A DNA stretch of 21,238 bases from a virus, in the IMG/VR virus record IMGVR_UViG_3300044547_000519, positions 1 to 21,238 of that record. The stretch is one strand, 5' to 3'. Made by a program: the position numbers and the translations under genes. Below, piece by piece: positions 6,196 to 16,268 of the stretch (the stretch's first letter is position 1; each line of letters starts with the position of its first letter). The notes below the pieces were generated by a model. That model did no database searches. It was not told the origin of the DNA and saw nothing but the letters and a program-made list of their open reading frames with translations.

Positions 6196-6444
6196 ATGCC
6201 TGCATGGGTACGTTCAGCATTAACTACGTTCATTGTCACGTTCATTGGCCTTGTGCCAGTGAGCGCACTCGTGGGTGGGGATACCACGTGGATCACAGCT
6301 GCCGCCACGGCAGCGGTCCTAGCCACACTGCGCACCATCGTCGCAGCCATCGACTCAGGCAATACTTCCTACGGTGTGGGTGCCCCTGTTGATGTCCCTG
6401 AGTTGGACAGCGTTCAAGACGACGCACCCATTGAGGGCGAGTAA
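6196..6444 (+). CDS. Holin, r1t-like
   Basis: I use ATG 6196 because GAAGGGA (6184-6190) is well placed before it, and the upstream open frame (6091-6195) reads like noncoding sequence and carries the inverted repeats. The result is an 82-residue protein with two hydrophobic segments: TTFIVTFIGLVPVSALVGG (10-28) and WITAAATAAVLATLRTIVAAI (32-52). An acidic C-terminal tail follows (DVPELDSVQDDAPIEGE). Two helices with ATAAVLATLRT in the second match the r1t-type holins commonly found in actinophages. Holins oligomerise in the membrane and time the release of the endolysin. The stop overlaps the endolysin start (TAATG), so the two are translationally coupled. Confidence 0.82.
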   Translation: MPAWVRSALTTFIVTFIGLVPVSALVGGDTTWITAAATAAVLATLRTIVAAIDSGNTSYGVGAPVDVPELDSVQDDAPIEGE

Positions 6445-12276: not shown

Positions 12277-12812
12277 CCGCGGTAAAGGTGAGTGGCAAAA
12301 GGCGGCCAAACCCACCGACACACAGGGCAATTGCAAAAGCATGGAATAAGGACATGGATGACGTAGCTCATTGTTTTGCATGTAATTACACAGGATCAAC
12401 AGAAAAATCTTGGACTCGACCAAACCTAGTCAAGGCGCATGTTGTTCCCTACAGTCTTAATGGCTCCAACGAACCTGACAATTTTGTTTTATTGTGTGTT
12501 CGGTGTCATGAATTAAATCCTGAAACAACATCTAGGCAATACTTTTGCGACTGGTTAGAAGCATCACCTAAATCATTAGGGAGTGTTCATTATCTGGCTC
12601 TAGGCCACGTGCATACTTGGGCACAAAGTGGTGGCATGCAGGCAAACGATTCACTGTCAAGGGATTTAACAGGTGAGGAATTTAAGAGCATGTGGACTGC
12701 AATGGTAAATGAATTACAACCTAACCCACCATTTACACCAGGCACGTTGCAGGTCATGCTGATTGATGGTCATAAACGTGCGTTAGCAATTGTAAATGAG
12801 GAAACAGCATGA
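12273..12812 (+). CDS. HNH endonuclease-like protein, base composition unlike its neighbours
   Basis: This 179-residue protein starts at GTG 12273 in a GTGA overlap. It has a zinc-bound HNH core: HCFACNYTG (Cys34, Cys37), VKAHVVPYSL (His56), NFVLLC (Asn70, Cys75) and VRCHELNPE (Cys78, His79). The rest is helical and ends NEETA. By hand count 12361-12780 is about 43 percent GC, while two sampled 60-base lines just upstream are 53 and 65 percent, and codon ends become A/T rich. This points to recent arrival as a mobile HNH gene. No intron or split gene is seen next to it. Confidence 0.75.
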   Translation: MTAVKVSGKRRPNPPTHRAIAKAWNKDMDDVAHCFACNYTGSTEKSWTRPNLVKAHVVPYSLNGSNEPDNFVLLCVRCHELNPETTSRQYFCDWLEASPKSLGSVHYLALGHVHTWAQSGGMQANDSLSRDLTGEEFKSMWTAMVNELQPNPPFTPGTLQVMLIDGHKRALAIVNEETA

Positions 12813-13105
12813 GCGCGTGGGATGTGAAAGGCACCGACGTGATCAAGAGCTGTAAGCGGTGCCAGGTGCCAGTGTTCATTGTGCACGACGAAGCCCGACC
12901 AGTCACGCGCACAATCATTCGCTACCAGGTGGACGTTGAACCCGTTAACGGCCCCAACTACACAGCGCCCTTCTTTGAGCACGCCGGTGATGGGTACTGG
13001 ATTGAACGACACAGCCTTCTACCAGGAGCGGACGCATACCACGCAGTCCACCACTGCGCACCACCTGCTCGATGCAAGCACTGCGAGCAGGTACACAATG
13101 CCTAG
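12809..13105 (+). CDS. 98-aa protein with CxxC...CxxC metal site
   Basis: ATG 12809 overlaps the HNH gene stop. Cys15/Cys18 (SCKRCQVP) and Cys89/Cys92 (RCKHCEQV) form a likely zinc site, with one more cysteine (Cys83, HHCAPP) and a His-rich region. The middle (30-75) resembles beta strands. Terminal CxxC pairs far apart suggest a split zinc ribbon. No family recognised. Base composition returns to the neighbourhood norm, so the low-GC insertion is limited to the previous gene. Confidence 0.6.
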   Translation: MSAWDVKGTDVIKSCKRCQVPVFIVHDEARPVTRTIIRYQVDVEPVNGPNYTAPFFEHAGDGYWIERHSLLPGADAYHAVHHCAPPARCKHCEQVHNA

Positions 13106-13634
13106 ACCCACACGCCCGATCACACCAGATGTTATTGCTGGTGCGTTGCATCGTTTACAAACAAGGGTGGACATTGACCCGCGCACCAATTGTGTCAACT
13201 GGACTGGTGCACTCAGGTCCGGTTATGCTGTACTCAACGTCGATGGGCACCTTTACTCAGGTCATCGCATCATCGCGGTACTGTTTAAGTTGATGCCAGG
13301 TGACTCACCACTGTACATTGATCACACCTGTATGAATAAGCGTTGCATAAACCCTGAGCACCTCAATGCAGTAACCCATGCTGAGAACAATAAACGAGCT
13401 TGGGAACGTGGCGAATACCAAACAACTGGTTTCGCCCTAACCAATAAGAACAAAACGCATTGTCCTCACGGTCACGAATACACCGAGGACAACACGTATC
13501 TAAGACCTAAGACGGCCATGCGGTCGTGTAGGACTTGCTTGAAAGCCCGAAAGGCGGAAGATTATTTACGCACAAAGGCAGCCAAACAAGTAGACAACAA
13601 CAATAACAACAACAAGGAAGAAGGACCACAATGA
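13098..13634 (+). CDS. HNH_3-type endonuclease with extra zinc knuckle
   Basis: Start ATG 13098 overlaps the previous gene by eight bases; an open frame back to 12879 runs inside that gene and is rejected. The 178 residues show the HNH_3 pattern of intron-type phage endonucleases: CVNWTGALRSGYAVLNVDG, GHRIIAVLF, then YIDHTCMNKRCINPEHLNAV (His76, Cys78, Cys83, Asn85, His88). A C-terminal module follows: HCPHGHEYTEDNTY and RSCRTCLKAR (Cys122, Cys144, Cys147). It ends in six Asn codons in a row, a CAA-type repeat right before the next gene's ribosome site. It is the second free-standing HNH gene in this block and probably a homing-type element. Confidence 0.85.
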   Translation: MPRPTRPITPDVIAGALHRLQTRVDIDPRTNCVNWTGALRSGYAVLNVDGHLYSGHRIIAVLFKLMPGDSPLYIDHTCMNKRCINPEHLNAVTHAENNKRAWERGEYQTTGFALTNKNKTHCPHGHEYTEDNTYLRPKTAMRSCRTCLKARKAEDYLRTKAAKQVDNNNNNNKEEGPQ

Positions 13635-13954
13635 GTGACATCCAATGGGACGAGTTCGGTGCAAGTGAATTCGTCAAGTTTGGTGCAGTAGGCGACACCA
13701 TCGCCGGCAAGATCACGAACATCCGCATCGGCCAGGACTTCAACGGCAACCCATGCCCAGTGCTCGACCTTGACACAGGCAACGGTTCACGAACCGTCAC
13801 CGCTGGTCAAGCGAACCTAAAGTCCCAGATCGTGCAGCTCCGCCCAAGTGTCGGAGACAGCATTAGCATTACTTACGATCGGGATGAGAAGGCTGAGAAG
13901 GGCATGAAGAAGGTGTTTGCCATTAAGGTGGACTCAAACACAGCACCCTTCTAA
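13631..13954 (+). CDS. OB-like protein, candidate single-strand DNA-binding protein
   Basis: ATG 13631 follows AAGGAAGAAGG at good distance and overlaps the previous stop. The 107 residues alternate as beta strands: DTIAGKITNIRIGQDF, PCPVLDLDTG, SRTVTAGQANL, then SVGDSISITYDRDEKAEKGM and KVFAIKVD. A barrel of about five strands with a basic loop (RDEKAEKGMKK) fits an OB-like fold. Proteins of this kind sit directly upstream of the primase in many actinophages and may coat single-stranded DNA. The function is inferred from order and fold pattern, not from a diagnostic motif. Confidence 0.55.
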   Translation: MSDIQWDEFGASEFVKFGAVGDTIAGKITNIRIGQDFNGNPCPVLDLDTGNGSRTVTAGQANLKSQIVQLRPSVGDSISITYDRDEKAEKGMKKVFAIKVDSNTAPF

Positions 13955-13987
13955 CAAGACTTGTCGCGCTGGGCTGCGTTGACAAAC

Positions 13988-14096
13988 GCCTCCCTGCTCT
14001 ATTCTCCGGAGCAGGGGGGCACCACCCTCCCAGGTGAAAAGCCCACACAACTGAATAGCACCGGCCTTGAAGTGGGGAAGACTGATAGGCCGGTGC
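13988..14096 (+). promoter_or_regulatory. Structured leader before the primase gene
   Basis: In the 177-base gap 13955-14131 two strong inverted repeats occur. The first is a 12-bp stem with one G-U pair (13988-13999 with 14009-14020, 9-base loop). The second is a perfect 9-bp stem, GCACCGGCC/GGCCGGTGC (14058-14066 with 14088-14096, 21-base loop). The run GGGGGG at 14014-14019 can instead pair with CCCTCCC at 14025-14031, giving an alternative fold. No T-run follows either stem. It may be an RNA control element for primase-helicase expression. An open frame crosses the region but reads like noncoding sequence. Confidence 0.5.
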
Positions 14097-14131
14097 ACAG
14101 TGACAAGCAGCCCACGATCAAGGAGCCACAC

Positions 14132-14734
14132 ATGAACATTGCACAAATGAACGATCAACAACTCATCGATGCTTACGCCGATGTTGTGGCCGATGAGCCA
14201 GCCCGCATCAGGTTCCTAGAATTACTTGACCAGGCGGATGCCGATAAGCACGCGTTCCTGCGACGACCACAGGCCCTAGCCGAGTCCGCTAAATGGTATG
14301 GGGAGCAAGGCATCGCAGTGTTCCCACTCCAGCCACGAAGCAAAATCCCTATGCGTGGTTCACGAGGGTGCAAAGACGCCACCACGGACCTTGAACAGAT
14401 CAGCTCGTGGTGGACACAAATGCCAAACGCCAACATTGGCATGGTCACAGGGTTCCAATTCGATGTCATTGACGTGGACGGACCCGATGGGTTCGAGTCA
14501 CTGTCCCACCTGAAACCGATAGCCAATGTGCTTGCATCAGTGATCACTCCACGCGGGCGACACATCTACGTCAAAGCAAAGCCTGGGCGCAAGAACGGCA
14601 CGAACCTCAAACTCGGTGTGGACTTCCGCGCCAGTGGTGGATACGTTGTCGCGCCACCATCGATCAACGCTGAAGGCAAAATTTACACCTGGCTGATCAC
14701 ACCAGAAGAACTGGTGAAGCACTGTGAGCGATGA
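14132..14734 (+). CDS. Primase-polymerase domain protein (separate from helicase)
   Basis: Start ATG 14132 follows AAGGAG (14119-14124). The 200 residues are one Prim-Pol (bifunctional primase/polymerase N-terminal) domain: YGEQGIAVFPLQPRSKIPM, WWTQMPNANIGMVTG, then FDVIDVDGPDG (Asp114, Asp116, the metal-binding DxD), GRHIYVK (His144) and LGVDFRASGGYVVAPPS (Asp164). The protein ends right after this domain. In most phages the same polypeptide continues into a helicase; here the helicase is the next gene, in another frame, overlapping by 11 bases. The product should make primers, or primers plus short DNA, at the fork. Confidence 0.88.
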   Translation: MNIAQMNDQQLIDAYADVVADEPARIRFLELLDQADADKHAFLRRPQALAESAKWYGEQGIAVFPLQPRSKIPMRGSRGCKDATTDLEQISSWWTQMPNANIGMVTGFQFDVIDVDGPDGFESLSHLKPIANVLASVITPRGRHIYVKAKPGRKNGTNLKLGVDFRASGGYVVAPPSINAEGKIYTWLITPEELVKHCER

Positions 14735-16268
14735 CGGGCTAGACGATTGGGAACGCAAACTCTTTGGTGACAAACCACAGCAAGCACCAGATGCAGTGTT
14801 TAACAATGTGGTGAACATCAACAAGAACCAAGACATCCGCGCGTACTCACTTAAGGCCCTTGTCGATGAACTTTATGAAGTGGCTAATGCACCAGAAGGA
14901 ACACGAAACCACACGCTGAACAATGCCGCGCTCAAACTTGGCACCCTTGTTGCTGCTGGTGGACTGACACAGCTCGAAGTAATCCAGCCACTACTTGATG
15001 CTGCCATCGGTAATGGGCTGCCGGAGTCCGAGGCCGTGGGCACAACACGCTCAGGGTACGAGTTTGGGTTATTGAACCCGCGGGAGATACCAAACAGCGT
15101 GGACCTGTTAGACGCCTTCATACGCGAATACACCGACATTACCCCCACACCTAGCCCAATCACCCCAGAACAGGGTGCAAGTGCCTTAGAAGGGCACACA
15201 GAGCCTCTAAAGGGCATTGAGCCTGACGAGGATGATGAGCCGGCCTTACCTTACGCCGATCTCACCTGGGCAGCCAATGGGGAAGTGCGACCACCCACCC
15301 TGCCCAGCGTAGGTGAACGCAACGACGGTGCACACATCCTCTACGCAGGCAAAATCAATGGCATCTATGGCGACCCAGAAACCGCAAAGACGTGGTTTGC
15401 GCTACACCTCGCACAACAAGTGCTCAGCGCAGGTGGCACAGTCGCACTCATCGACATTGACCACAACGGTGAAAACGACACAGTGGACAGGTTACGCAAA
15501 CTCGGTGTCAGCAATCAGCTCATCGGCGATGCTGCACACTTTCGCTATTACATCCCAGAGACACCAGCAGAACTCCTAGCCACCCGCGACGACATCATCG
15601 AGCAGCACCCCACGTTGTGTATCCTGGACAGCATCGGTGAACTCATCCCCATGCTCGGACTGGACAGCAACAGCAACGACGACATCAGCCGTGGATACCG
15701 CGCAATGCTCACACCACTAGCACAAGAACACACCGCGGTCCTAACCATTGACCACCTCGCCAAAGCAGGCAAATCAGACCACGGCTACGCCATCGGAGGC
15801 ATCGCCAAGAAACGAATCATCAACGGGGCCTACTACCACGCCGAAGCACTAACCATTCCCGCACCAGGCATCGTGGGCAAAGTGCGCATCATGGTCACAA
15901 AAGACCGACCAGGAGGAATCCGCGAACACGCACCACAAGGCTCACTCGGCAACTTCATCATCGACTCCAGCGCCAGCGACGGCCACGTCAACGCACTCAT
16001 CGCCAACGTCATCGGCAGCCCACTGCGACCAACAAACGCAATGGAACGAATTTCTCGCCTACTCGCCGGCAACGACGGGATGCACAAAACCACAATCGGT
16101 AAAGACGCCGACGTAACCAAAGCCACCACACTCAATCAAGCCCTCCTCGTCCTCGTGCAAGAGGAATACGTGCGCACCGGCGAAGTCGCCGGCAAAACAA
16201 TCTACTACCACGAGCGCGATTATCGTCAGCTCGACGAAGAACTCAACAGCCTCAACAAAGCGGACTAA
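14724..16268 (+). CDS. RepA/RecA-like replicative ATPase (helicase partner of the primase)
   Basis: This 514-residue protein starts at GTG 14724 inside the primase gene's end. Residues 40-122 (ALVDELYEVANAPEGTRNHT, LNNAALKLGTLVAAGG, YEFGLLNPREIP) are the helical segment that normally links Prim-Pol to helicase. The ATPase core (200-400) has Walker A GIYGDPETAKTWFA (213-226, Lys222), Walker B LCILDSIGEL (298-307, Asp302) and a later TIDHLAK. The Walker A has Ala in place of the usual Gly before Lys, a form seen in some RepA-like ATPases. Residues 430-514 form a winged-helix-like C terminus. With the primase it should unwind and prime DNA. Confidence 0.85.
   Translation: MSDDGLDDWERKLFGDKPQQAPDAVFNNVVNINKNQDIRAYSLKALVDELYEVANAPEGTRNHTLNNAALKLGTLVAAGGLTQLEVIQPLLDAAIGNGLPESEAVGTTRSGYEFGLLNPREIPNSVDLLDAFIREYTDITPTPSPITPEQGASALEGHTEPLKGIEPDEDDEPALPYADLTWAANGEVRPPTLPSVGERNDGAHILYAGKINGIYGDPETAKTWFALHLAQQVLSAGGTVALIDIDHNGENDTVDRLRKLGVSNQLIGDAAHFRYYIPETPAELLATRDDIIEQHPTLCILDSIGELIPMLGLDSNSNDDISRGYRAMLTPLAQEHTAVLTIDHLAKAGKSDHGYAIGGIAKKRIINGAYYHAEALTIPAPGIVGKVRIMVTKDRPGGIREHAPQGSLGNFIIDSSASDGHVNALIANVIGSPLRPTNAMERISRLLAGNDGMHKTTIGKDADVTKATTLNQALLVLVQEEYVRTGEVAGKTIYYHERDYRQLDEELNSLNKAD

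Follow-up and report, generated by a model that had tools for sequence, protein, structure and literature searches.

A conserved RNA structure between an OB-fold-like gene and a primase gene in a phage: a candidate cis-acting leader

Why a phage operon in which most neighboring genes share a 4-nt overlap should hold 177 nucleotides between two of them, directly ahead of its primase gene, is the question raised by the locus studied here. The sequence is the IMG/VR virus record IMGVR_UViG_3300044547_000519, analysed over its 21,238 nucleotides and referred to as the window, and its replication-protein relatives are found mostly in phages of actinobacteria (Mycobacterium, Streptomyces, Gordonia, Arthrobacter), so that the host is likely an actinobacterium, as judged from sequence. 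The gap (13955-14131) extends from the stop codon (13952-13954) of a 107-aa ORF (13631-13954, + strand) to the ATG (14132) of a bifunctional DNA primase/polymerase gene (PrimPol, 14132-14734, + strand; N-terminal domain PF09250, E 2e-33), which is followed by an AAA_25/RecA-like helicase-like ORF (14724-16268). The PrimPol Shine-Dalgarno sequence (SD), AAGGAG, lies at 14120-14125. A first-pass annotation had singled out the gap as large in a genome where almost every gene overlaps, and had proposed that it holds a structured RNA leader; large it is, but not unique, as gaps of 75-115 nt are present elsewhere. For the 107-aa protein, no PHROG matches and no Pfam matches above the cut-off were obtained, and its AlphaFold model, which is of low confidence (pLDDT 66.6), weakly resembles the OB folds of PrgE and RPA (best E 0.013). 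We therefore label it, with low confidence, OB-fold-like and a possible ssDNA-binding protein, and not SSB. Upstream of it, an HNH-like endonuclease ORF (about 13101-13634) separates it from a 98-aa ORF (12809-13105), and as the counterparts of these two flanking ORFs are almost adjacent in the related records L002 and L008, the HNH-like ORF looks like an insertion in the window phage.

The folding energy of the gap RNA is -82.3 kcal/mol (z = -5.66), a value reached by none of 200 dinucleotide shuffles, and the gap ranks first among 482 windows taken from both strands of the whole record, with z -6.0 on the + strand and -2.8 on the complement. In the predicted architecture, all on the + strand, a helix P1 closes a multi-branch domain comprising P2 to P5. 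The 5' strand of P1a (CUUGUCG, 13960-13966), which begins 6 nt past the upstream stop codon, pairs with CGAUCAAG (14115-14122), a strand that takes in the first three bases of the SD, and P1b is formed by UGGGCUGC (13970-13977) and GCAGCCCA (14107-14114). P2 is the hairpin GUUGACAAAC (13978-13987). P3 (13988-14020, 12-14 bp) carries in its 3' arm a run of six G residues (G6, 14014-14019), and it corresponds to a 12-bp stem that had been noticed on first reading (13988-13999 with 14009-14020, including one U-G). P4 is the hairpin CACC CUCCCA GGUG (14023-14036), and the junction J4/5 (14037-14049) leads to P5 (14050-14101), which consists of an outer ACUG/CAGU helix, an inner helix (14058-14067 with 14087-14096) and the apical loop GUGGGGAAG (14072-14080). 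The inner helix is the perfect stem that had been described as having 9 bp; the stem is real, and its length is 10 bp. A pseudoknot between J4/5 and the P5 loop is possible, as a weak candidate pairing of CCCAC (14042-14046) with GUGGG (14072-14076) is kept in all six distinct sequences of the element, with one C-to-U change giving U-G. After the gap, the strongest fold of the record lies at 705-1146 on the + strand (z -5.3, -4.8 and -4.2 in nearby windows); it covers an ORF (718-1008) directly 5' of the tape measure gene and could be a tail-chaperone frameshift region.

Protein and motif scans revealed the element in at least seven further IMG/VR records (L002, L003, L005, L006, L008, L009 and L016; the loci L010-L015, L020-L027 and L032-L038 are from the same records as L002-L009 and L016), and these seven are matched by the covariance model. 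As the element is the same in L005, L006 and L008, six distinct sequences are available, the window included, and the covariation alignment A3 built from them represents a single lineage with mostly at least 83% identity. Standard pairs occupy 99.7% of the pair cells, and compensatory double changes occur at five base pairs spread over P3, P4 and P5, a result equalled by none of 500 column shuffles, while slid partners gave 0 or 1 double-change pairs. Three of these pairs lie in P5; in P4, both L003 and L016 have U-A in place of C-G, a double change, and P3 of L016 shows a C-G to U-A double change, a U-G to C-G change and a co-inserted A-U pair. In P1a of L016, two pairs are kept by G-U changes although the SD of that record is shifted. 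A single A.C mismatch is present, in P5 of L002. P1b, P2 and the outer P5 show no variation among the six sequences and hence no covariation, and the basis for these helices is purely thermodynamic. Where only one partner has changed and the pair is kept (P1a, P3 and P5), most changes are of the G-U type when read on the + strand, an indication that it is the + strand that folds. Searches for known relatives gave no match to Rfam 15 at the gathering threshold in the whole window, chance-level matches in the gap region at a loose threshold (E 1.7 and 5.8), and chance matches of about 24-36 nt in phage and plasmid DNA collections. The covariance model R1 detected no relative among 66 more distant loci with PrimPol or the upstream ORF, in 9 genome loci, in 156 loci with short motif matches, or in 396 genomes from the phylum of an Arthrobacter, the genome scans being run without a positive control. 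By these sequence comparisons, in which rarer relatives may have been missed, the RNA structure is previously undescribed.

Could the conservation of the gap reflect a protein instead? Its identity to that of the window is 83-99% in the relatives, compared with 52-78% (upstream ORF) and 35-76% (PrimPol) at four-fold degenerate sites, and an open frame does start at 13961. This frame is broken by stops or frameshifts in L002, L003 and L016, so its translation, the finding that would have spoken against an RNA, was rejected, and protein coding does not explain the conservation. The gap is thus a conserved, non-coding + strand RNA structure, and the initial proposal of a structured leader before the primase gene gains support from the covariation, the strand bias, the lack of a conserved reading frame and a fold that abuts the SD. 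Two more specific proposals fared less well. It had been suggested that G6 switches between two C-rich partners, one 5' and one 3' of it, and in the window it can indeed pair with CCTCCC (13989-13994) or CCCTCCC (14025-14031). However, in L016, the most diverged relative, G6 is changed to GGGTGAGC and the 5' partner to GCTCACCC, so that this pairing (P3) covaries, whereas the 3' stretch, CCATCCTCC, does not match. A riboswitch with alternative G6 pairing was therefore rejected, as only one of the two pairings is conserved. It had also been considered that such a switch controls a terminator, but none of the GC-rich stems is followed by a T-run on the + strand of the gap, and an intrinsic terminator was rejected.

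The genes behind the element are not constant. In L005, L006, L008 and L009, the leader is 98-99% identical to that of the window, but the PrimPol is different (47% identity), and the second gene of the cassette looks unrelated to the helicase-like ORF of the window. A BLAST comparison of the window with L008 showed similarity through 14138, about two codons past the ATG, which resumes from 16389, with one short similar stretch inside PrimPol in between. The leader is thus constant before two different PrimPol and helicase cassettes, which suggests that the element goes with the sequence 5' of it and can serve one cassette as well as the other. This exchange argues for a cis-acting leader and against the idea that the neighboring replication proteins recognise the element as an origin.

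How would such a leader act? The reading we prefer, to which we give an about even chance and which is based on structure modeling, is that the gap is a cis-acting mRNA leader tying primase translation to translation of the upstream ORF. P1a would pair the first bases of the SD, and the rest would be paired, through GAGCCAC (14123-14129), by the 3' end of the upstream ORF (GUGGACUC, 13928-13935). This would close the primase ribosome site on the free RNA. A ribosome finishing the upstream ORF would cover the 5' strand of P1a and the coding-region partner and thereby open the site, so that primase synthesis would depend on synthesis of the upstream protein, and a protein on the conserved loops could further tune primase translation. 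When 30 nt of upstream coding sequence are folded in, the predicted unpaired probability of the window SD is at most 0.02, with P1a and GUGGACUC as partners. If the terminating ribosome is mimicked by keeping the RNA unpaired as far as 13 nt beyond the upstream stop, the predicted cost of opening the SD drops by 2.9-7.3 kcal/mol in all six sequences, a drop that was matched by 1-6 of 60 leader shuffles per sequence. The opening cost itself is not above that of shuffles, and masking alone is therefore not unusual. Furthermore, the coding-region partner, which is present in the minimum free energy (MFE) structures of the window, L002, L003 and L009, is absent from that of L016 and weakened in L008; together with the ordinary opening cost, this makes coupling a reasonable reading and not a proven one. 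The P4 loop contains CUCC complementary to GGAG of the SD in all six sequences, but this pairing was set aside as a second lock, being too short to be evidence. Coupling through the unwinding of structure over a downstream start is an established proposal (PMC7538156), and as reinitiation after termination, in the native pairs that have been tested, is largely lost once the distance exceeds about 20-40 nt (PMC10666635), coupling would here have to act through unfolding. Also counting against the coupling reading is the size of the element, which far exceeds what coupling requires, and its five helices with invariant loops hint at a more specific role.

Such a role could be that of a binding site. 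The multi-branch fold with its invariant loops may be a site at which a protein or metabolite sets primase translation, with the OB-fold-like upstream protein as a conceivable ligand, in a control similar to that of T4 gp32, or with the element acting as a riboswitch; we consider this a possible though unlikely alternative. In its favor, the loops and junctions (GACA, UAUUCUCCGG, AGCCCAYACAACUGAA and GUGGGGAAG) are nearly invariant while the helices covary, the J4/5 segment AGCCCA(C/U)ACAAC and the P5 loop being invariant in the alignment apart from that C/U position, the junction-loop pseudoknot is possible, and the OB-fold-like protein stays linked to the element across the PrimPol exchange. 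There is also precedent, since T4 gp32 and gp43 autoregulate translation via leader RNA structures (PMC3014915). Against it, no known riboswitch family matched in Rfam, by which a known riboswitch was rejected, and the controlled gene would be the downstream one and not the OB-fold gene itself, unlike in the case of gp32. It would be a new class of phage riboregulator if a domain with a junction-loop pseudoknot sensed a replication protein or ligand and set the expression of the primase-helicase cassette, whichever one happens to lie behind it, and this we hold to be rather unlikely.

In more distant PrimPol phages, the equivalent gap often contains a strong hairpin or a tRNA gene, none of which matches the covariance model. 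ARAGORN identified a tRNA-Val at 2880-2962 of L041 and a tRNA-Leu at 2886-2960 of L044, both in the gap before PrimPol, and the corresponding gaps of L018, L040 and L080 have GC-rich hairpins with stems of about 13-16 bp, perfect or nearly so, that lack a T-run. In L017, the upstream protein is 70% identical, and the gap is shorter, otherwise different, and as a whole folds no better than chance (z -0.20); the sequence of the P5 loop, GUGGGGAAG, recurs at 6364 in a hairpin loop of this gap, a single case that may go back to an ancestor common to both.

These tRNA genes bring up the idea that the gap encodes a stable, trans-acting small RNA, either processed from the operon or transcribed within it. 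Actinophages are known to express non-coding RNAs from mid-genome intergenic regions, an example being the 63-64 region of D29 (PMC5712189), and a TTGACA is found at 13979 of the window, followed by TATTCT at 14000. With only 15 nt between the two, the spacing is poor, the pair was not called as a promoter, and a sigma-70 promoter was rejected as the main explanation. In addition, the extension of P1a into the SD would be needless for a free RNA, and neither ARAGORN nor Rfam recognised a known RNA, so that a tRNA or tmRNA was rejected for the window element. We consider a small RNA quite unlikely.

The position between replication genes and the strong hairpins would also suit a replication origin, as had been suggested on first reading, or a primase start site, recognised either in the form of folded single-stranded DNA or through an RNA primer. 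This is disfavored by the exchange of PrimPol (47% identity) and the helicase-like gene beside an element that is still 98% identical, by the G-U type of the changes on one strand, by the location of the GC-skew extremes, which lie near 8.5-9 and 17 kb and not at 14 kb, and by a search for iterons that found none, and we regard it as very unlikely. A transcription attenuator, antiterminator or mRNA-stability element, as might be proposed from the strong GC hairpins at the same position in L018, L040 and L080, is extremely improbable, since the + strand stems have no T-run and the multi-helix fold with invariant loops exceeds what a terminator needs.

The coupling reading can be compared with known systems. 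In phage MS2, long-range pairing reportedly covers the replicase start in the coat-replicase system. The window element would be similar in that the downstream start is predicted to pair with upstream coding sequence, with opening expected on upstream translation; unlike in MS2, it is a 177-nt conserved multi-branch domain between genes of a DNA phage, and its coupling is predicted. A paper on coupling by unwinding (PMC7538156) has MS2 coat-replicase among the work it cites. The pseudoknot leader of T4 gene 32 (PMC3014915) is likewise a structured RNA beside a gene of the ssDNA-binding type in a phage replication operon, with a possible pseudoknot and a predicted action at the ribosome site as further parallels; the element described here, however, lies 3' and not 5' of the OB-fold-like gene and has five helices. 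With the D29 63-64 RNA (PMC5712189), it shares an intergenic place within an actinophage genome, but the D29 RNA is known from RNA-seq. The tRNA genes of L041 and L044 are located at the equivalent operon position, with the upstream ORF on one side and PrimPol on the other, but are tRNAs according to ARAGORN, which the window element is not.

In summary, phages of uncultured bacteria have been little explored for structured RNAs that act in cis, and here one RNA element is conserved whole across an exchange of the primase and helicase that follow it. If the element controls the cassette, replication modules would be swapped behind a fixed RNA regulator, and such a regulator, if real, would explain how exchanged cassettes are expressed at the proper dosage.
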